Positions 45,673 through 62,869 of a stretch of 64,000 nt of DNA are shown piece by piece. A program made the translations under genes and the position numbers. The notes below the pieces were generated by a model. That model had not been told where the DNA came from. It did no database searches and saw only the letters and a program-made list of their open reading frames with translations. Origin of the DNA: Acidimicrobiaceae bacterium (lineage in GTDB: Bacteria > Actinomycetota > Acidimicrobiia > Acidimicrobiales > Poriferisodalaceae). The DNA is taken from assembly GCA_002721305.1 (NCBI GenBank), contig PBKA01000006.1, positions 206,659-270,658 on the forward strand, in the 5' to 3' direction. Numbering within the stretch: position 1 is the first letter of the stretch; each line of letters starts with the position of its first letter.

Positions 45673-46920
45673 CTATGCGCCCTTGATGCTTTCAAGTACC
45701 GGAAGCAGGTACTCGATGAATTTCGCCGGATTTTCCGACATAGGGAAATGACCGATATCTCTCATCTCACAAAAGGAAGACCCCGGGATCGCTTCATGAG
45801 CTTCCCGACCCTTCTCTAAGGTCGCACTGAAATCATATTCCCCAGAAAAAATATGGACGCCAACCTCAGATGTATCGATAGTCGAGGCCAACTCCCTCAA
45901 ATCGTATTCGGCTATGTAGTACCAAAGATCTCCCAGGAACACCGGTGGCCATCCCGCGGCATAAGTCTGCGTCGTTTCCTTCCGATAGGGAAGGGGTGAC
46001 GCCGGAGCTGTCAGGCCTTCCATCATCGTCGCCTTAGTTTCATTGGAAACTTGGGGGTGCCAAAACCCTTCTAGGGCGTTTAGATTGCCGCCAACGTGCA
46101 AAGCTCCTTCAACTGAAATCACTGCTCGAAACGTTTCAGGGTGTTTCTGTGCCAAATCCAGAGCTAATAGTCCTCCTACCGAGCACCCCATGAAAACAGG
46201 CTGCTCGAGTTCGAGAGCTTTGGAAATAGCGAGCGGGACGGACCGCAAAAAGTCACCTTTAAGGCGGTATTGCTCTGACCACCACTCACGTCCTACCGGT
46301 GGGATCGATTTGCCATGAAAAGGCAGGTCGTACGCTATTAATCGGAAATTATCGGTAATAGCTCGCGACTCAAAAAGGTGCCGCCATTGCACCCCGTGAG
46401 ACCCAGCGGTGTGTTGCAGGAGTAGAGGTATGCCTTCCCCTGCTTCTTCGAAATAGATCCTGTGTTCACTGCCTTGAAGTTCTAAACGCAGATAACGCCC
46501 GACAGGAGAGTCAAATGATCCGTGCCCCCGACCTTCTCGGCCGATTTCTCCCGCAGGTGGATCCGAAGTGCGTATCAATTCGCACAGTCGTTGAATTGCG
46601 GGCAGACGTTGCCACCAGGCGAGTCGGTCGCCATTCCATGAAAGCCCACCTTTGCCCGTGGCGATATTTATGTCATTCATGAATCGTGGAGGATTACCGC
46701 TCCGGACTTGGTCCCAAATCTCTTCTGGTCCACTGATTGTGACGACGCCGGTGCCGTGGCCGGGAACTCCTTTGTCTGTCTGCCCGTCTCTGACACAGAC
46801 TCCAAGGGTGGCTTCTCCTATCTCTAAACGCACTCCCCCGGTCCAATATCTTGACGCCATCTGAAACTCTGGATCGTTTCGGCATAGAACATAGAGATCT
46901 TCAGTCGTCAATTTTGCCAT
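45673..46920 (-). CDS. two-domain protein: N-terminal ~120-aa SCP2-like region + alpha/beta hydrolase
   Basis: C-terminal IPLLLQHTAGSHGVQWRHLFE, AYDLPFHGKS, GCSVGGLLALDLA, DIGHFPMSENPAKFIEYLL; N-terminal WTGGVRLEIGEATLGVCVRDGQ...MNDINIATGKGGLSW lies outside the hydrolase fold. Confidence 0.8.
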   Translation of the reverse strand: MAKLTTEDLYVLCRNDPEFQMASRYWTGGVRLEIGEATLGVCVRDGQTDKGVPGHGTGVVTISGPEEIWDQVRSGNPPRFMNDINIATGKGGLSWNGDRLAWWQRLPAIQRLCELIRTSDPPAGEIGREGRGHGSFDSPVGRYLRLELQGSEHRIYFEEAGEGIPLLLQHTAGSHGVQWRHLFESRAITDNFRLIAYDLPFHGKSIPPVGREWWSEQYRLKGDFLRSVPLAISKALELEQPVFMGCSVGGLLALDLAQKHPETFRAVISVEGALHVGGNLNALEGFWHPQVSNETKATMMEGLTAPASPLPYRKETTQTYAAGWPPVFLGDLWYYIAEYDLRELASTIDTSEVGVHIFSGEYDFSATLEKGREAHEAIPGSSFCEMRDIGHFPMSENPAKFIEYLLPVLESIKGA

Positions 46921-46974: not shown

Positions 46975-48495
46975 ATGTCTTTAGACCACCGGCTGTTGAG
47001 CGTTGCTAATCTCGAAGCGGGGGAAAGAATGACGTTTGCCTTACGAGAAACATTCGAACCAGGGCTACCACCTGACGATGATCACCCTTATCGCTCTGGT
47101 GTGTGGCGTCCACAGCACCGCGAATACGACGCTTGGGACATGGATGTCATAGGCGAGATACCTGATGACCTCAACGGTGTCTATCTCCGCAACACTGAGA
47201 ACCCGCTCTTCGAACCCATTAAGCGTTATCACCCGTTTGATGGTGACAGCATGATGCACTCCATTTCGTTCGAAAACGGTGAAGCTCGCTACGCGAACCG
47301 ATTCGTTCGGACCGATGCGTTTCTCGCAGAGCAGGAATCCAACGAGAGTCTGTGGGCCGGGATCGCCGAACACCCTTCGAATGCGATCGCCAATTATGGA
47401 TGGGGTGCTCGCACGTTCATGAAAGACAATGCTTCAACCGATGTCATTGTCCACGGGGGCGCCGCTCTCGCAAGCTTTTACCAATGCGGCGAGTTGTACC
47501 GCTTGGACCCGCGAACCTTAGAGGATCTCGGAAAAACCACCTGGAACGGATTCTTTCCCGAAGAAGGCGTATCTGCTCACCCGAAACTTGATGAACATAC
47601 CGGAGAGTTGCTTTTTTTCAGCTACTTCACCGAAGCGCCCTACATGCGTTACGGGGTCGTTAACCGTGCCGGCGAACTCACGACTCATGTAGATATTCCT
47701 TTACCTGGGCCGCGCCTTCCTCATGACATGGCTTTTACAGAAAATTGGTCAATCTTGAACGATCTGCCTCTGTTTTGGAGTCCCGAGGCTCTAGCCGACG
47801 GCTACTACTCGAACACGTTCGATCGCGATCTTCCCAGCAGATTCGCATTACTACCAAGGCACGGATCGACCGAGGACATCCTTTGGTTCGAAGCAGACCC
47901 CACCTTTGTTTTGCATTGGACTAATGCTTACGAAGAGGGTGACTGGGTGATCCTCGATGGATTCTTTCAACATAACCCGACTGCCCGCGGAGTGGATCGC
48001 GGAACCGGGAGCCACAAAGGGTTCGAGACTTTAGACATGAATGTTCTCCAAGCCAGGGCCCATCGTTGGAAATTCAACACAGTTACTGGTCGCTGCACGG
48101 AAGAGCCCATGAGCGAGACTTGCGCCGAATTCCCAATGATCAACGGGCGTCATGCCGGTAGGCGACACCGATATTCCTATAACGCTCGCTGCAGCCCGGG
48201 TTTGTTCGCATTCGACGGCCTCATTAAACACAATCTCGACACTGGGACCGAAGAACTATACGAATTTGAGCCAGGCGTTTTCGTCAGCGAGACCGTGATG
48301 GCCCCAAGGGACGGTTCCAAAGCAGAAGATGATGGTTATCTAGTGACGTTCGCTTCTGACCTCAATAAGGACTGTTCCGAGGCACTTGTCTTTGATGCCT
48401 CCGATCTGATGCAAGGTCCAGTTTGTCAAATCCGCCTTCCGGAAAGAATTTCAAGCGGTACTCATTCCACATGGGCTCCGAGCACTGATATATGA
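46975..48495 (+). CDS. carotenoid oxygenase (RPE65/CCD) family protein
   Basis: Putative iron-ligand His contexts: SAHPKLDEHTGELLFFSY, LPHDMAFTENW, FVLHWTNAYEEGDWVILDGF, SSGTHSTWAP. Confidence 0.9.
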   Translation: MSLDHRLLSVANLEAGERMTFALRETFEPGLPPDDDHPYRSGVWRPQHREYDAWDMDVIGEIPDDLNGVYLRNTENPLFEPIKRYHPFDGDSMMHSISFENGEARYANRFVRTDAFLAEQESNESLWAGIAEHPSNAIANYGWGARTFMKDNASTDVIVHGGAALASFYQCGELYRLDPRTLEDLGKTTWNGFFPEEGVSAHPKLDEHTGELLFFSYFTEAPYMRYGVVNRAGELTTHVDIPLPGPRLPHDMAFTENWSILNDLPLFWSPEALADGYYSNTFDRDLPSRFALLPRHGSTEDILWFEADPTFVLHWTNAYEEGDWVILDGFFQHNPTARGVDRGTGSHKGFETLDMNVLQARAHRWKFNTVTGRCTEEPMSETCAEFPMINGRHAGRRHRYSYNARCSPGLFAFDGLIKHNLDTGTEELYEFEPGVFVSETVMAPRDGSKAEDDGYLVTFASDLNKDCSEALVFDASDLMQGPVCQIRLPERISSGTHSTWAPSTDI

Positions 48496-50147
48496 GCGAA
48501 CTGGTCGTCTATACGGCGCGTCAGATCCGAACGATGGAGCCCTCTATGCCTGTGGCAGAAGCCATAGCGGTGCGCGATGGCCAAATAGTGGGCGTGGGAA
48601 ACTTGGAGTCACTGAAGCCCTGGCTGGAACAAGAGCGACACACCATTGACGACAGGTTCAGTGGTGACGTTTTGATGCCCGGCTTTATCGATCCGCACCT
48701 TCATCCATCGATGGCAGCTCGCCTTCTCACTATGGAGTTCGCCACCGCTGTGGAATGGGATCTCCCTTGGGCCGAAATAGGAGCCGTGAGCACACGAACT
48801 GACTTTCTCGACGCTCTCAACAAATTCGCTGCAGATGGACCCGATGACGAACCTCTCTTTATTTATGGACATCACCCACGATGGCATGGCGACGTTGACA
48901 GAGAACTCCTTAACAGCATCAATCGTCAGCGCCCAATCGTCGTGTGGCATCGCGGTTACCACTCCATCATCGTTAATGACGCTTGCTATCAATGGATGGG
49001 TTTGGACATGGATTCAGCCCGACGCCATCCCCAAATCGATCTTGAACGAGGGGCATTTTTCGAGAATGGGTTGTTTGTCGCGAATAGGCATTTCGTTCCC
49101 CATTCCCTCGAACCTTCCCGCTTCAGGCTTGGTCTCGAGAGAGCACGTGACGTTATCCACGCAGGGGGCCACACCACCATCTGTGATGCAGCGTTTCCGA
49201 TGTATGACCTTGAGCTCGAATGGGCTGCATTGGAGGAGACGATCGGCGGTTCGGAGGTGCCGTTCCGTACGGAATTTATGCCTTATGCCGTCAACACCGA
49301 AGGAATGGCTCCTGGAGATGATGACCAACAACGAGTTGACTTGGTTCAACAGATCCAAAGCCATCGGGAACGCAATGGGCACCGGCTAACTTTTGGTAAT
49401 CACGTCAAAATGTTGGCAGACGGCGGGTTTTTCGCGGAACTCATGCGTTTGAACCCTCCGGGTTACCTTGACGGCCACGATGGTGAATGGATAACACCTC
49501 CTGAACAATTTGAAGCTACCGCCAGGGTGCTGTGGAACGCCGGATTCCAAATTCATGTCCATTGCACCGGAGATGAAGGTGTCGAGCTTGCTTTGGCGAC
49601 CTTGGAGAAATTGCAATGGGAACGACCCCGATTTGACCACCGCTTTACGTTCGAGCATTTCGGACTGTCTGATGCCCAACAGGTCAGACGCATTGGACGT
49701 CAAGGGGGCGTGGTTTCTGGACAGGTCTACTATTTGTACGAACTGTCAGATGTCTTCGGCCGCACCTCCATCGGACACGAACGCGCGTCTCAGATGACTC
49801 GCTTGGGCACTGTCGAACGCGAGGGAATCCCCTTCGCCCTTCATTCGGATTTCACAATGGCCCCCGCTAAGCCACTCCATAATGCTTGGATCGCCACAAA
49901 CCGAATCAACGAATCGGGTGAGCTTGTCGCCCCAAACGAACGAGTGTCCCTGGACGCCGCCATGAGAGCTATCACTATTGACGCCGCGTTCATATTGAAC
50001 AAGGAAGCGGAGATAGGCAGCCTTCGGTGGGGCAAGAAAGCTGATTTCACAGTGTTGAACGAAGACCCCTGGGACGTGGGCATAGAGGGGCTACGCGATA
50101 TCTCAATCAAAGGCACGGTTTTTGAGGGAACTCCCTACCTTCTATGA
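48492..50147 (+). CDS. amidohydrolase family protein, YtcJ-like
   Basis: YTARQIRTMEPSMPVAEAIAVRDGQIVGVGNLESL, VLMPGFIDPHLHPSM, GFQIHVHCTGDEGVELALATLE, FALHSDFTMAPAKPLHNAWIA, GSLRWGKKADFTVLNEDPW. Confidence 0.92.
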   Translation: MSELVVYTARQIRTMEPSMPVAEAIAVRDGQIVGVGNLESLKPWLEQERHTIDDRFSGDVLMPGFIDPHLHPSMAARLLTMEFATAVEWDLPWAEIGAVSTRTDFLDALNKFAADGPDDEPLFIYGHHPRWHGDVDRELLNSINRQRPIVVWHRGYHSIIVNDACYQWMGLDMDSARRHPQIDLERGAFFENGLFVANRHFVPHSLEPSRFRLGLERARDVIHAGGHTTICDAAFPMYDLELEWAALEETIGGSEVPFRTEFMPYAVNTEGMAPGDDDQQRVDLVQQIQSHRERNGHRLTFGNHVKMLADGGFFAELMRLNPPGYLDGHDGEWITPPEQFEATARVLWNAGFQIHVHCTGDEGVELALATLEKLQWERPRFDHRFTFEHFGLSDAQQVRRIGRQGGVVSGQVYYLYELSDVFGRTSIGHERASQMTRLGTVEREGIPFALHSDFTMAPAKPLHNAWIATNRINESGELVAPNERVSLDAAMRAITIDAAFILNKEAEIGSLRWGKKADFTVLNEDPWDVGIEGLRDISIKGTVFEGTPYLL

Positions 50148-51067
50148 GACCTGCTCGTCCAAGAATCCCTGTAACGGTGATCGGGGGCTATCTAGGTGCA
50201 GGCAAGACCTCGCTCATCAACCGACTGCTCACTGAAAGTAGCTCCGAGCGCTTGGGTGTTCTGGTCAACGACTTCGGTGAAATCAACATAGACGATGCCT
50301 TGATCGCAGAACGGGGGGTAAATACCATCTCTCTTTCCAACGGCTGTGTTTGTTGCACAATTCGCGACAGCATCGGGTCGGCTCTAGATGAGATCCTCAA
50401 AATTCGCCCGCTGCTCGACCATGTGATTATCGAAGCAAGCGGCGTGGCCCATCCAGCGAAGGTCGCTCTCTACGGGCAGGGCTGGCCAGGTTGTTCCCTC
50501 AACGCTGTCGTCGTCGCTGTCGATGCTTCAACCATTCGCACCCAGAGCAACGACCGCTTCGTCGGAAGCCTCTGCCTTGAGCAGATCAGGCAAGCTGACC
50601 TACTTGCGCTCACTCACCTCGACCTGTTAGCTGACTCCCAAACGGAGCTATTGTTCGATTGGTTAAACCAGCACAGCAACTCGGCAACTCTCGATGCTCG
50701 CGCACTATCTATCCCTTTCCTTCTCGGCCTAGAGAACACGTCCAGCTTTGATGATCTGCCGTTGAAAACCAACAACTTCCTCACCTCGCACATTGCCTAC
50801 GCGTTCGCGAACTCAAAGGACCATCTATGGTCAATTCTCGATGATCTCCCGATTCAAATCCTCCGACTCAAGGGATTCGTCAATATCGACGGCAGTAAGT
50901 ACCTGATTCAACGAGTAGGGAGCCGTTCGAGTGTCGAAGCCACCGATTTGAACGGCGATGGTCTTGTCGCAATCTGGCCTGCGGACTCTTGCGACTCACA
51001 ACAGGTAACTGAGGTCTTGGAACAACTGCACAGCAGATGCGATCCACCTCCGACTTCTGTTGTGTAG
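50144..51067 (+). CDS. COG0523 / CobW-family GTPase (putative metallochaperone)
   Basis: PVTVIGGYLGAGKTSLINRLL (Walker A), VNDFGEINID, NGCVCCTIRDS (CxCC motif), THLDLL. Confidence 0.93.
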   Translation: MRPARPRIPVTVIGGYLGAGKTSLINRLLTESSSERLGVLVNDFGEINIDDALIAERGVNTISLSNGCVCCTIRDSIGSALDEILKIRPLLDHVIIEASGVAHPAKVALYGQGWPGCSLNAVVVAVDASTIRTQSNDRFVGSLCLEQIRQADLLALTHLDLLADSQTELLFDWLNQHSNSATLDARALSIPFLLGLENTSSFDDLPLKTNNFLTSHIAYAFANSKDHLWSILDDLPIQILRLKGFVNIDGSKYLIQRVGSRSSVEATDLNGDGLVAIWPADSCDSQQVTEVLEQLHSRCDPPPTSVV

Positions 51068-51132: not shown

Positions 51133-52347
51133 TCAAATCAATGGGAGGGGCTCCTGTCCCAGCGCTGCACGGTACGTGTTGTGGTAGTGATGAAGGGCTG
51201 GTTCGTTCCTACCAAACATCACGTGCTCCACGGCTCCACTATTAGCTGACCGCTGCTGGCTAGCACTTGCGACATAGTCTTCATCTCTAATAATCGCAGC
51301 AAATCCCTCAGCAACCTCTGAAAGTACTTCTAGCGGCGCTGTGTCGAGAAGAGCTTGGCGTTCGGGGGCGACCGTGTTGGATCTCGCCGTTCCTATTCTG
51401 TCGCCACGAACATAAAAAGAGATGACGCTGGTGTGCCGGCTAGGAGTTTCTTCATCCGGATATGCGCGGACCACGTACAGTCCGAAGTCGCTCGGCATCA
51501 CGATGCTGTTGGGGAAGATCCAGTAGACAGGCAAACCAGCGACGGTAATGTCCCAGCGGTCCTCGGACCACTCTCTCATCTCGTGGATGGCCTTCTTGCA
51601 AAGAATCATTCGGTGATGTCGACCATAAGTGTCGTAACACTGAACGTTGCCCTGAAAAAAAGTGGCCAAGGAGTCCCGATGCAAATAATTGAAGTGGTAG
51701 GTCTCCCCGAAGGTATCCATGGCGAGCTTCCAGTTGCAATCAACGTCGTAACGATCTCCGCCCAGCCGGCTATAACTTCCGAAATTCCACGCCTCAAACT
51801 CTTTGCTGAGCTCCGTTCCAAGTAGCTCATCAATGTCGACCGTGCCCGAAGGATCAGGGTTAGCGAACAAGAACCCGTATTTTTCTTGCGCTGAGAGCTC
51901 TATCAGACCGAAAGAATCCTTATCGATCTCTCCGAAGTGGTCCTCTTTGGGCACACCGACTAATGCACCCCGTGAGTCATAAGACCAACCGTGGAACGGG
52001 CACGCGAACCGGCGCTTATTGCCACTTTCCTGTTCCTCAACAGCTACTCCTCGGTGGCGACAAGCGTTCACGAACGCACGAAATTGTCCGTCATCATCTC
52101 GTGTTGCCAGTATTCGTGTATCAAGATCGTTGGCCGTGAAAAACGAACCTGCTTCAGGCAAGTCCCCGGACAGCCCTAACAGTTGCGGGTGGCCACGAAA
52201 GAACAAATCTCGTTCACTGCTAGCCACAATTGGGTCGGTGTAGCTAGATGTCGGATTGAGCCTCACCCCTCCCGCATCTACATTTGTCCCCGAATCCAAC
52301 CTCGATAAAAGCATCTTTATCTGGCTTACTTGCTCGTTGCGCTCCAT
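51133..52347 (-). CDS. Rieske aromatic ring-hydroxylating oxygenase, alpha subunit
   Basis: Rieske motif CRHRGVAVEEQESGNKRRFACPFHGWSYD; mononuclear-iron region WKLAMDTFGETYHFNYLHRDS. Confidence 0.93.
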   Translation of the reverse strand: MERNEQVSQIKMLLSRLDSGTNVDAGGVRLNPTSSYTDPIVASSERDLFFRGHPQLLGLSGDLPEAGSFFTANDLDTRILATRDDDGQFRAFVNACRHRGVAVEEQESGNKRRFACPFHGWSYDSRGALVGVPKEDHFGEIDKDSFGLIELSAQEKYGFLFANPDPSGTVDIDELLGTELSKEFEAWNFGSYSRLGGDRYDVDCNWKLAMDTFGETYHFNYLHRDSLATFFQGNVQCYDTYGRHHRMILCKKAIHEMREWSEDRWDITVAGLPVYWIFPNSIVMPSDFGLYVVRAYPDEETPSRHTSVISFYVRGDRIGTARSNTVAPERQALLDTAPLEVLSEVAEGFAAIIRDEDYVASASQQRSANSGAVEHVMFGRNEPALHHYHNTYRAALGQEPLPLI

Positions 52348-52409
52348 TGAGCCGCCCTCGCCTTCAAACCGTTCCGAACCTCAACTCTCAAAAGATTAGT
52401 GGGTCACCC

Positions 52410-53738
52410 ATGACAAACACACCTCTCGATCGCACTGAAACTGCCCCCGGGTATTGGAATTCGCCATGGCCCGTTGAATGCGGTGGGAACAGACGCCAGA
52501 AAGCTAGAACGGGGCGCTTGGATTCCGCTGACGGTGAGGCTCAAGTCACCCTTATACGTAATGACCGTTGGAACGTCATGACCGTTCGCCGCGATCCAGG
52601 TGAATGGTATGTGGGAGGCACAATGCCGGCCTTTGTCGGACCCCCGCCCTTCGGTTGGGTAAGCCGATTCGATCCGACCTCCCTCGAAAATCTCGCCGAA
52701 TCGCCGGCACTTCCCTGCGGAGACCACGTCTGGTGTGGAGCAATCTTGGTGCACGCTGATGGCTCAATTATGTCGATTAACGGCTCTTTCCTTCACCGCC
52801 TCGATCCCCACAACCTCTCTGTCCTTAATGAGCTCAAGCTTCCGGTTGACCGCGCCCACAACGGTTTACTGTCCTTGTCGGACGGAACTCTAGTGACGAA
52901 GGATTTGCGTTTGGAGGAACAGGGCGGAACGACTCTGACCTTTGTGGATCCCGCAAGCCTTGAAGTCATCGAAACTCTGGTGCTTCCTGAGGGATCCATG
53001 GGCCGGATCGCCGCGGATTTCCACGATGGGATTGATTCCGTTTTTGTTCCCGGGACAGAACATGTGTGGAAGATAGATGTGGTTCAAGGTCAACCAGAAA
53101 TCAGCGATTGGGTCTGCCGTTACAGAACGCCGGGTTCTCCGTGGGGGCTCGCGTGGGATTCATGCATCTCTGATGGGCACCTGTGGCTCATGGACTGTGG
53201 GGACATCGAGGGTGTTCGCGCTATCCACCACAGACTTCCAAATGGTCGTTTTGATGAACCCGCAGGGAAGCTCCTGTCTTGGCAGCGCCCCGCGCCTTGG
53301 AAGGGTGCTCAGCGTTTGTTGCGGGTAGATCAGATGACTGGCCGCTTGGATACCTTGGAACCCTTCGGCGCTCCCGGAGGGGGAATCATCGCGCCCCCGG
53401 TTAATGTCCCTGAGTTTGATATTGCAATTGCATGGGACTCAATTAACGGAGGGCTTGCCGGCATTTCCACCGCTGGACAACTTGAGCCTGTGTGGCACTT
53501 GGATGTCAAGCCGTCGATGCAGCCGGTGGTATTTCCGGAATCTGGGGAGTTGGTGATTAATGATTTCACTGTCGATCAAACTGATGATCTGATAGTGGTC
53601 GATATCGAGACCGGGCAACTACTGAGTCGGGTAGCCACAGGTTCGCGCCTCGCCAACGGCATGTTCCTTACCGCCGGCGACAACCGTGATGTTTATTACT
53701 GTTCCACTCTTTCTTGGGCGCGGGTGGCTTGGGTATGA
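52410..53738 (+). CDS. uncharacterised protein, beta-propeller-like repeats (SMP-30/gluconolactonase-like appearance)
   Basis: Repeated GT/S(L/I)..FDP/DP.(S/N)L blocks (WVSRFDPTSLENL, LHRLDPHNLSVL, LTFVDPASLEVI, LLRVDQMTGRL). Start MTNTPLDRTE. Confidence 0.6.
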   Translation: MTNTPLDRTETAPGYWNSPWPVECGGNRRQKARTGRLDSADGEAQVTLIRNDRWNVMTVRRDPGEWYVGGTMPAFVGPPPFGWVSRFDPTSLENLAESPALPCGDHVWCGAILVHADGSIMSINGSFLHRLDPHNLSVLNELKLPVDRAHNGLLSLSDGTLVTKDLRLEEQGGTTLTFVDPASLEVIETLVLPEGSMGRIAADFHDGIDSVFVPGTEHVWKIDVVQGQPEISDWVCRYRTPGSPWGLAWDSCISDGHLWLMDCGDIEGVRAIHHRLPNGRFDEPAGKLLSWQRPAPWKGAQRLLRVDQMTGRLDTLEPFGAPGGGIIAPPVNVPEFDIAIAWDSINGGLAGISTAGQLEPVWHLDVKPSMQPVVFPESGELVINDFTVDQTDDLIVVDIETGQLLSRVATGSRLANGMFLTAGDNRDVYYCSTLSWARVAWV

Positions 53739-55646: not shown

Positions 55647-57155
55647 TTAAAGGCCCAGCCTGATGTCGAATTTGGCTCGGATCTGTTGATCCACCGCTGA
55701 AGGAATTAGCTGGAGGGGATCTTGGATTAAGCGCCTTTTCACTTCGTTTCTCGCTAGATCTATCTGCTGCGGTCGGTTCCGCTCTTCCCAGCTTTGAAAA
55801 TCGGTTCGATCCGCAATGTCTGGGTACACAAAGTCAGAATTCATTCTTACCAATGTTGCTTCGTCACCCAGAAAATGGCCGGTGCCTTCCGTGACGGCAA
55901 AATGAATATCCTCAAGTTGCATGTCATCGGTATCCAGCGGCCGCAGGGAACTCATCACACTTCCGAGCATGTCGTTGTCCAACAGGTAGCTCTCAAACGA
56001 CACTCCCATCAGGCCAGCATGCATTCCGCATGCTTGGGTGACCAAGTTGCTGCCCGCTTGTGCTGACAACACTACGGCTAACGCCTTTTCGGATCCGCTC
56101 TGTATATCCGGAATTTTCGAATCACTCGCTCCGGCGATCGAAACATTGGGTAGACCCAACTCCCTGGCGACCTGAGCCGCGGCAGCCATGATCAAAGCTT
56201 GTTCTCCGCCTCCCCCACTCATAGCCCCGGTCCTGAGGTCAACAATCATAGGTTTGGGGCCACAAAGTACCTTTGCTTCCGGATTGACAACCCAGCTAAA
56301 CACCATTCCGGCTAATGCCTCAGCAAGGGTCTGAGCGATGGATGCGCCGAAATTCACTGGCGTTGACGCACCTACTTGGCTGAAGACATTGCAATGTGCC
56401 GGTATTCCTCGTTCAGCTGCCACCAAAAGGACTTCCATTGCGTCCCCGCTCATTCGCATGGGAGGAGTGACGTGGTTGACGTTGAAGGAAAGAAATGGTC
56501 GTTGCACGAAAAGCTCTGGCGATCCAGCTATTTCGAAACAAAGGTCGGCTACTGCTCGAGCCGTCGAAGCATTACTGGCGCTCGTTGCCACGTGTTTGGT
56601 TGTTCCTGCCAGACACGCGTACGCAGTGTTAACGTCGAGCGTTTCTTCGTCGGGCATATCACCTGCTACGAGGGGTCGACTTAGAAAATGGACGTGCTGC
56701 AGAGAGTCGACGAGCCTCGCAGCATCATAAAGATCTTTCAGAGTGGACCGTCGATATTCGCCGGTGTCGACATCAATGACCATCGGGGCGGCCCCGCCTG
56801 TTCCAAGATGTACCCGATGTCCCGAAAGATCTAGATCATGTTTCTCTTCTCGGCCACAAAGCACGAAACCCGATGGCGCACTGGTGATCAGGGGCTCCAC
56901 GAGTTCGCGTGGGAAAAGAAGTCGTCCCTCACGGACCTCCCCCCCTGCCTCGCATATGTGATTCTTGACGAAATCAGGCGCCTCGCTAAACCCAGTTGTT
57001 TCTAGCAACTCGTATGCACCATCGATGATTTCCGCCGTTTGGCTTGCCGAGAGTGGTCTGAAGCGGCCGCCCTCCATGCCCGAAGCTGCAGAATTCTTCG
57101 AAGCTTCGCGACGTAGCTGGGCAGCCGACGGGCGTCGGCGAGTCCTTCCGGTCAC
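55647..57155 (-). CDS. MttB (trimethylamine methyltransferase) family protein, no in-frame amber
   Basis: LSASQTAEIIDGAYELLETTGF, GGAAPMVIDVDTGEYRRSTLKDLYDAARLVDSLQHVHFLSRPLVAGDMP, CGPKPMIVDLRTGAMSGGGGEQALIMAAAAQVARELGLP. Confidence 0.85.
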   Translation of the reverse strand: MTGRTRRRPSAAQLRREASKNSAASGMEGGRFRPLSASQTAEIIDGAYELLETTGFSEAPDFVKNHICEAGGEVREGRLLFPRELVEPLITSAPSGFVLCGREEKHDLDLSGHRVHLGTGGAAPMVIDVDTGEYRRSTLKDLYDAARLVDSLQHVHFLSRPLVAGDMPDEETLDVNTAYACLAGTTKHVATSASNASTARAVADLCFEIAGSPELFVQRPFLSFNVNHVTPPMRMSGDAMEVLLVAAERGIPAHCNVFSQVGASTPVNFGASIAQTLAEALAGMVFSWVVNPEAKVLCGPKPMIVDLRTGAMSGGGGEQALIMAAAAQVARELGLPNVSIAGASDSKIPDIQSGSEKALAVVLSAQAGSNLVTQACGMHAGLMGVSFESYLLDNDMLGSVMSSLRPLDTDDMQLEDIHFAVTEGTGHFLGDEATLVRMNSDFVYPDIADRTDFQSWEERNRPQQIDLARNEVKRRLIQDPLQLIPSAVDQQIRAKFDIRLGL

Positions 57156-61070: not shown

Positions 61071-61568
61071 CTAGATGAGAAAGGTCAAGTTTCGTTGCCC
61101 CGCCTGAGCCGTCACAAGCTCAATCCACTTTGCCGCCATTCGTAACTCACCCTGTAAGCGTCTCAGTTGGTATTGCGCTTGTCCGGGCCAAACGCGAAGC
61201 TCTCCAGTCGATTGAGCAGCCAACTCGTAGATGACGAAGTTTGCTTTCACTGAAATTTGATCGGCTGCTTCCTGCTGCACCTCAATGTTGGAAAGGATTC
61301 GACGCATTGGAGATGTGGGAAGTTGCGATAGACGCTTTCCCGTTTGGAGCTGTCGAATCCTAGTCGCGACCCGGGCGCGGTTGTCGTTTAGGTAGGCCAA
61401 CTGCTTCGCTGGGTCACCTTCGATACGACCAGCAGGAACCCAGTAATGAAAATCGTCTGTGAGTAACCCCTCCCACTCATCAAGCAAAAATTCGTCCGCG
61501 TAACGGGCTTCGCGGTACAAGAACTCCTCTACTTCTGCCTTCAACTGCGTTGCGGTGTCGGCATTCAT
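61071..61568 (-). CDS. aromatic-ring-hydroxylating dioxygenase, beta (small) subunit
   Basis: VEEFLYREARYADEFLLDEWEGLLTDDFHYWVPA, TPMRRILSNIEV region; ATG 61568 overlaps alpha-subunit stop (ATGA). Confidence 0.88.
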   Translation of the reverse strand: MNADTATQLKAEVEEFLYREARYADEFLLDEWEGLLTDDFHYWVPAGRIEGDPAKQLAYLNDNRARVATRIRQLQTGKRLSQLPTSPMRRILSNIEVQQEAADQISVKANFVIYELAAQSTGELRVWPGQAQYQLRRLQGELRMAAKWIELVTAQAGQRNLTFLI

Positions 61569-62869
61569 TCTTGACTCATAATTTCGAGGTACCGAGACCA
61601 AAAACCCCGGTTCGTCGTCTCATCAGACGCGTCGCTTGATCGCACACCGCCTTCATCCATTACTTCTCGGTGCATGCCGCGACTGAGGTCTACCCAGCCC
61701 CGACTGGTGGCCGCCCATGAGGTAGCTGTTCCGGAGACGCCCGCCTGGATGCGTTCTGCCGTAATCGCGTCGTCACTAGTGATAAACGAGGCGGGCCCGA
61801 CAGCCGCCTCGGTTTGGCGTAGTAAGCGTTCGTTGAATGCGTCGTCCACTCCCTCAAACTGCACCGCTGTGTGGCGGTGAATCATTTCTGTTGGGCTCAC
61901 CGGTTCCACGATTGCGATCACGGTTTCCCCCAAAAAGAGGTTCGGGAACAGAAACGCGTGTGGGGGGCCATCCCAAAGCAGTTGTTGAGCCACCTCATCA
62001 CCGACGCGTTTCGCGAGCGCTGAACAGTAGTTCCGAACTCGTTCTCTGGTTACACCCAGCCAGGAGAGTTCCTGCTTGTAACTTGGTCGCCAATCTAACT
62101 CAAGGTGTCCCCTCCCGTAATCGACGGCTCGTGAGCTCTTAACTGCTTCGCCGCCTACGGCAACGTCGTCGTAGTAGGTGTCGGTTGAGGCCGACATTGA
62201 GGCGTGGACAAAACCCACGTGGTATCCATCGCTGTCACTTTCTGGCCACAACTTCCAGTTCGATTGCACCCGATGACCTATCCAACCTTTGGACAAATCA
62301 ATCTTGCCCGTGGGGCTCATCTCACAGAGGCGGTCAATGAGCTCGAACCCAGCATCTCCCAGGTGCTCATCGATAGAGCAGGCGGAGCCGTCTAAATTCG
62401 CAAAAACGAAACCCCGGTAATTCGCGACTTGACCTGCTCGATCCAATCCGAGATCCTCTTTGGGTTTTGAATACCCATCAGGAAAAGGGACAGCACGTAA
62501 GCTGCCGTCTAACCCAAATCGCCAGTTGTGGTAAGTGCACTGGAAAAAAGAATCGTTACCGCTGTGCTCCCAGCACAGAGCAGTTCCTCTGTGTGCACAC
62601 CGGTTCGATAGAACATTGATCTCACCATCGTCTCCACGAACCATGATCACGGACTCAGTGCCCAGTTGACGTTTAACCCAGTCGCCATTGTTTTTGGTTT
62701 CTGATTCATGTCCGACGAAAGCCCACCCTCGGACAAAGATTTGCTGCATCTCTTCAGCAAAAATGTCGCGATCATGGAGCAAGCTTCCGTGTATGCGGTC
62801 AGCTCGGACTAAATACCGATAGTCAATCTCCATTCCCACAGTTTCGCATGACAGCAATCGGACGTTCAT
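61565..62869 (-). CDS. aromatic-ring-hydroxylating dioxygenase, alpha subunit (Rieske)
   Basis: CAHRGTALCWEHSGNDSFFQCTYHNWRFGLDGSL; WKLWPESDSDGYHVGFVHASM. Start at 62869 has gaggaatta upstream. Confidence 0.93.
   Translation of the reverse strand: MNVRLLSCETVGMEIDYRYLVRADRIHGSLLHDRDIFAEEMQQIFVRGWAFVGHESETKNNGDWVKRQLGTESVIMVRGDDGEINVLSNRCAHRGTALCWEHSGNDSFFQCTYHNWRFGLDGSLRAVPFPDGYSKPKEDLGLDRAGQVANYRGFVFANLDGSACSIDEHLGDAGFELIDRLCEMSPTGKIDLSKGWIGHRVQSNWKLWPESDSDGYHVGFVHASMSASTDTYYDDVAVGGEAVKSSRAVDYGRGHLELDWRPSYKQELSWLGVTRERVRNYCSALAKRVGDEVAQQLLWDGPPHAFLFPNLFLGETVIAIVEPVSPTEMIHRHTAVQFEGVDDAFNERLLRQTEAAVGPASFITSDDAITAERIQAGVSGTATSWAATSRGWVDLSRGMHREVMDEGGVRSSDASDETTNRGFWSRYLEIMSQE

Follow-up and report, generated by a model that had tools for sequence, protein, structure and literature searches.

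A recurrent pair of YtcJ-type amidohydrolase and COG0523 GTPase genes beside a carotenoid-oxygenase-type gene in an Acidimicrobiaceae bacterium

A three-gene locus of an Acidimicrobiaceae bacterium (assembly GCA_002721305.1, contig PBKA01000006.1, positions 206,659 to 270,658; the whole 64,000-nucleotide stretch is called the window here) encodes an RPE65/CCD-type Fe(II) oxygenase (CCD), a YtcJ-like amidohydrolase (AMH), and a COG0523 GTPase. Its conserved unit is the AMH–GTPase pair, two genes rather than three. We propose, with a probability of roughly 0.68, that the client of the GTPase, as a metal insertase or metallochaperone, is the AMH and not the CCD. The direct basis is gene order, motifs, conservation, the matching of paralogues, and the gene cluster of a relative that lacks the pair; from these we infer metal loading, docking, and the direction of insertion of the pair. 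The genes and their stop/start overlaps (both read from the sequence) are as follows.

46975 to 48495, plus strand: CCD, RPE65/CCD Fe(II) oxygenase, 506 amino acids, ATG start (Pfam RPE65, E=2.3e-121)
48492 to 48495, plus strand: ATGA overlap of CCD and AMH
48492 to 50147, plus strand: AMH, YtcJ-like Amidohydro_3 metal-dependent hydrolase, 551 amino acids, ATG start (Pfam Amidohydro_3, E=3.7e-43)
50144 to 50147, plus strand: ATGA overlap of AMH and GTPase
50144 to 51067, plus strand: COG0523 (CobW/P47K-type) G3E GTPase, 307 amino acids, ATG start (Pfam cobW, E=1.4e-40; CobW_C, E=8.6e-6)

The coordinates and letters of both overlaps agree with the original prediction, as do its three assignments: the first product has the Pfam match and aligns with solved CCDs at the expected His contexts, the second combines the Amidohydro_3 match with a complete metal-ligand set, and the third carries Walker A and GCVCCT together with the cobW/CobW_C matches. 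A curated NCBIfam equivalog cut-off was reached by none of them, so no substrate or subfamily name is given to the CCD, AMH, or GTPase. Identities to the related locus L036 are 84% (CCD), 85% (AMH), and 58% (GTPase); synonymous sites are saturated and nonsynonymous divergence (dN) is low (0.11, 0.08, and 0.32, respectively), so all three genes are constrained. Constraint is weakest in the GTPase and least of all in its C-terminal part, in keeping with the variability on record for the C-terminal domains of COG0523 proteins (PMC2770081). Given this conservation with L036 and an AMH–GTPase order that recurs in two phyla, the three-gene arrangement is not a product of chance.

AMH relatives were fetched from 80 named loci, mostly of marine Acidimicrobiia and Alphaproteobacteria. 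A GTPase gene lies directly downstream of the AMH gene in 62 of the 75 decidable loci and is absent there in 13, the other 5 being undecidable mostly because the contig or the fetched stretch ended. Across 198 genomes of the window's order, an AMH gene stands directly upstream on the same strand in 21 of 29 GTPase matches of at least 140 bits and within 5 kb in 24 of them; COG0523 proteins more distant than this set mostly have no AMH partner. A separate sample of Alphaproteobacteria (240 genomes, the class of genome G206) gave 18 paired loci among the 30 AMH loci that were fetched. The pair, its products annotated as an amidohydrolase and a GTP-binding protein, is also found on plasmids of Pukyongiella, Sulfitobacter, Mesorhizobium, and Burkholderia multivorans, where TetR, branched-chain-type ABC, or sodium:solute symporter genes lie alongside. 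Exact 4-nt overlaps (ATGA or GTGA) join 50 of 92 AMH–GTPase pairs. Many Alphaproteobacteria have Opp/Dpp-type ABC transporters, an XRE-cupin regulator, and an FAD/GCV_T oxidoreductase beside the pair and others an MFS transporter and a peroxiredoxin; amine-oxidase-like or MFS genes adjoin the AMH in some Acidimicrobiia, several of which have no adjacent GTPase. Since transporters, regulators, and oxidoreductases vary around the pair, the AMH and the GTPase are what persists, and the GTPase gene is found consistently beside the AMH gene across lineages, as for a dedicated COG0523–client pair.

Paralogues within one genome show the same association. All three strong COG0523 genes in the window's genome stand directly behind a YtcJ-type AMH gene, where each adjacency would arise by chance with a probability of about 1% (about 15 AMH loci in ~1,900 genes, the latter total being an estimate). 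The nearest foreign pair is the same one in the AMH and GTPase trees for all three (window with L036, contig C3 with L023, and C16 with L158). Distances in the two trees correlate over 91 pairs (r=0.61; the highest of 500 shuffles gave 0.13), and mapping the AMH subfamily label onto the GTPase tree takes 4 changes against a minimum of 2.

The CCD follows a different pattern, which is best seen with the genes around the locus.

45673 to 46920, minus strand: alpha/beta hydrolase, transcribed divergently from CCD (54 bp separate the two start codons), as it is in the related genome L238
51133 to 52347, minus strand: alpha subunit of a Rieske oxygenase; in L105 an AMH–GTPase pair is followed by a homologue (516 bits)
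52284 to 53738, plus strand: conserved protein whose TTG start as called overlaps the Rieske gene; lies between CCD and BVMO in L238
53790 to 55622, plus strand: Baeyer-Villiger-type flavin monooxygenase (BVMO), PtlE-like (NCBIfam, 792 bits; cut-off, 1100)

Only two of the 80 named AMH loci have a CCD gene. The first, L036, reads SDR–CCD–AMH–GTPase–Rieske (minus strand)–unknown–BVMO, which is the order of the window minus the two genes upstream of its CCD; the second, L047, keeps CCD and AMH up to its contig end. Locus L238 (genome G132, of the same family as the window) has the divergent alpha/beta hydrolase followed by CCD–unknown–BVMO, with the AMH, GTPase, and Rieske genes absent, so these genes look inserted in the window's lineage. 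Insertion of AMH–GTPase(–Rieske) into a CCD–unknown–BVMO cluster is the simplest account and the direction is inferred; loss of the three genes in G132 is a possible alternative. The Rieske gene may belong to the inserted block, because an AMH–GTPase–Rieske block without a CCD occurs in L105. Elsewhere among the Acidimicrobiales examined, CCD orthologues (69 to 78% identical) lie away from the pair, and neither AMH nor GTPase was found in the fetched flanks of the orthologue loci L228 to L237. The CCD cluster with its BVMO and alpha/beta hydrolase would be suited to a pathway in which a carotenoid-like compound is cleaved to a ketone, which is then oxidized to an ester and hydrolysed.

The CCD–AMH–GTPase module of the original prediction is therefore not borne out as a conserved unit, the adjacency being confined to the window, L036, and (CCD and AMH) L047. 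A neighbourhood comparison asking for the GTPase beside both genes fails in its three-gene form and succeeds for AMH and GTPase, and the idea of a COG0523 GTPase encoded next to its client metalloenzyme survives for the AMH, where it can be followed through paralogues, phyla, and changing neighbourhoods, and is lost for the CCD. An arrangement in which all three form one module, the GTPase loading the oxygenase or both enzymes and the AMH acting on the CCD product, draws on the two overlaps, on the joint conservation of the three genes in L036 with synonymous sites saturated, and on L047, but the CCD is missing from the other 78 named AMH loci and both the same-family cluster L238 and loci L228 to L237 do without the pair; we consider it unlikely. 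Known CCDs bind iron through four histidines, and none is known to depend on a COG0523 protein, which also counts against the single module. The window CCD has these four iron-ligand histidines of RPE65/CCD oxygenases, its contexts SAHPK, LPHD, HWTNAYEEGD, and GTHSTW aligning with PDB chains of carotenoid 9,10-dioxygenases. Fold family and His ligands are common to CCD1-type carotenoid 9,10-dioxygenases, lignostilbene dioxygenases, and the window CCD; unlike those named types it falls below all NCBIfam equivalog cut-offs, and its substrate therefore cannot be named.

The AMH has a complete set of predicted metal ligands (HxH with H69 and H71, K306, H357, H389, and D453). All 34 unpaired AMHs keep these, as do all paired sequences that are not gapped there (7 rows, mostly truncated loci, have a gap at HxH). 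A confident AlphaFold2 model (predicted local distance difference test score [pLDDT], 93) gave the uncharacterized Pyrococcus hydrolases 3igh/3icj as top PDB fold matches, and the protein is a predicted hydrolase that fits a YtcJ-like Amidohydro_3 barrel with HxH, Lys, His, His, and Asp ligands. It shares fold and metal-ligand pattern with YtcJ-type Amidohydro_3 proteins (Pyrococcus 3icj/3igh and NfdA) at only ~20% identity to solved hydrolases of that family; NfdA, an N-substituted formamide deformylase, is a characterized PF07969 member (PMC13081902).

Such retention of ligands bears on a second explanation, that the pair belongs to a metal-starvation set in which the AMH would act as a reserve enzyme that uses a different metal, the GTPase handling zinc scarcity in general. 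COG0523 genes are indeed co-regulated with paralogues of PyrC, of the amidohydrolase superfamily, in Zur regulons, but the Zur-regulon PyrC paralogue lacks conserved zinc-binding residues (both PMC2770081), whereas paired AMHs keep all of theirs, and the neighbours of the pair (transporters and oxidoreductases) look catabolic; this explanation is improbable. That the two genes are joined merely by shared regulation or by horizontal co-transfer of a catabolic cassette, without protein contact, would suit their presence on plasmids and their apparent insertion in the window's lineage, but is very unlikely given that the pair persists as its neighbours change and that the three paralogue pairs of the window's genome agree between the two trees.

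The GTPase carries Walker A (GGYLGAGKT), CxCC (GCVCCT), and a Glu-containing Walker B (IIEASG); C68, C70, and C71 are invariant among 35 relatives, and a C-terminal CobW_C domain (PF07683) scores 26 bits (cut-off, 22). With these features it is in the COG0523 subfamily of G3E GTPases, its GTP and metal functions being predicted. YjiA of Escherichia coli (COG0523; PDB 1nij/4ixm) is the nearest solved structure by sequence (E=3.5e-21) and by fold (E=2.2e-15; top PDB match of an AlphaFold2 model with a fair pLDDT of 84.5), but the two-domain superposition is poor (TM, 0.47) and the YjiA-type NCBIfam model scores 85 bits against a cut-off of 361. CobW and ZigA share family and motifs with the window GTPase, which is far under their equivalog cut-offs (107/332 and 96/600 bits). 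A regular-expression search of the GTPase found no His-rich stretch, which would favour metal insertion over storage by the His-stretch argument of PMC2770081.

Two proteins would make up the core of the proposed mechanism, a YtcJ-type amidohydrolase of the cytosol and the COG0523 GTPase that serves it. A divalent metal is probably bound by the GCVCCT switch motif of the GTPase, whose fast-evolving C-terminal domain would dock on apo-AMH; through GTP binding and hydrolysis the GTPase would then deliver the metal to the HxH/Lys/His/His/Asp site in the AMH barrel. In the window's lineage, the pair, probably with the Rieske gene, would have been inserted between the CCD and its downstream neighbours, and would now be translationally coupled to the CCD.

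Several observations weigh against this role. Every step of the mechanism is derived from genomic data. The 13 named loci with no adjacent GTPase suggest that the pairing is dispensable in some lineages; pairing status changes at least 12 times on the AMH tree, and metal ligands are identical in paired and unpaired AMHs. The G4 motif of the GTPase (window and L036) is THLD and not NKxD, though other members vary there too; since the position is variable across pairs and YjiA has TKTD, THLD leaves the protein inside the COG0523 family. Species relatedness adds to the correlation between the trees, to which the own-genome paralogue matches are less exposed: a common species history does not account for why several paralogues of a single genome are matched.

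Loss or alteration of metal ligands was considered as a cause of the missing GTPase and ruled out, the ligands being the same in both AMH groups. Named loci with no adjacent GTPase are mostly from metagenome-assembled genomes (MAGs). Window-type AMHs of this kind cluster in MAGs (L046, L052, L054, L094, L070, L073, L079, L081, L085, and L086), several of which are, judging by isolate names, presumably sponge-derived. Several sponge-type Acidimicrobiia retain just a distant COG0523 protein (82 to 90 bits); six alphaproteobacterial genomes retain a GTPase of ~180 bits elsewhere. A clade of 16 AMHs, including that of S. oneidensis and two lipoprotein-like enzymes, has 15 members with no partner and one undecidable at a contig end. 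Signal-peptide-like starts occur in 5 of 44 unpaired AMHs versus none credible among 121 paired ones (L043 and L147 were flagged, but both represent the same sequence, which was fetched twice and has a read-through frame upstream). The five exported-looking AMHs, signal-peptide-like or lipoprotein-like, are L140:5884-7659, L140:7869-9704, L203, L204, and L210, and none adjoins a COG0523 gene. Exported AMHs may not need a cytosolic loader, a suggestive pattern from few independent cases.

Other observations concern individual loci and the surroundings of the three genes. In two Alphaproteobacteria, FMO/BVMO-like flavoprotein genes (L074:3895-5991 and L078:3681-5990) lie directly upstream of the AMH gene, their products being weakly similar to the window BVMO (138 to 146 bits). 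In L013 (genome G190), such a GTPase gene is flanked by an oligopeptide ABC-transporter gene and the gene of an adenosine deaminase (PF00962), itself a metalloenzyme of the amidohydrolase superfamily; a YtcJ-type AMH gene lies ~2 kb away. Contigs L040 and L044, labelled Latescibacterota and Acidobacteria, carry AMHs that fall within the Acidimicrobiia cluster and are probably mis-binned. The gene at 52284 to 53738, whose true start is probably downstream of the TTG as called, gave zero matches in Pfam and NCBIfam; it and L238:6779-8173 encode a conserved protein of ~460 amino acids, an unnamed partner of the CCD cluster. Downstream lie an MttB-family methyltransferase homologue (55647 to 57155; its open frame of 502 amino acids has no internal TAG, which makes a non-pyrrolysine type probable), with a sulfatase gene behind it, and a second Rieske oxygenase nearby (61565 to 62869). 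An Rfam scan of the window found neither a riboswitch nor another RNA, and a promoter scan gave one consensus site versus 4.5 expected in shuffles.

Arrangements that pair a COG0523 gene with the gene of its client are already known (Nha3, CobW), and a client family of amidohydrolases, with matched pairs of paralogues, would be a variation on them. The Nha3/P47K activator of Fe-type nitrile hydratase, also COG0523, likewise has its gene linked to that of a metalloenzyme; it matures the metal centre of nitrile hydratase and its CxCC is essential there (PMC2770081 and PMC9164220), whereas the client proposed here is a barrel amidohydrolase. Zur-regulated clusters of COG0523 and PyrC-paralogue genes likewise place COG0523 beside an amidohydrolase-superfamily enzyme (PMC2770081), but of another family than the AMH, and the window AMH retains its metal ligands. 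Literature on COG0523/CobW with amidohydrolase/YtcJ yielded no account of AMH–GTPase pairing, the main COG0523 network survey, Edmonds 2021, being outside that coverage.

Most COG0523 GTPases have no identified client, and a review urges gene-cluster predictions followed by biochemistry (PMC9164220). The pairing described here names a candidate client family with statistical support. We would give even odds to the broader view that a large unnamed COG0523 set consists of dedicated insertases for YtcJ-type AMHs, carried as two-gene cassettes that are inherited and transferred together, with several paralogous cassettes to a genome, each fitted to its particular hydrolase. The window's genome, with its three natural pairs of paralogues, lends itself to a comparison of specificity, with partnerless related AMHs as controls, and YtcJ-type enzymes expressed heterologously without their GTPase may look inactive or wrongly metallated.

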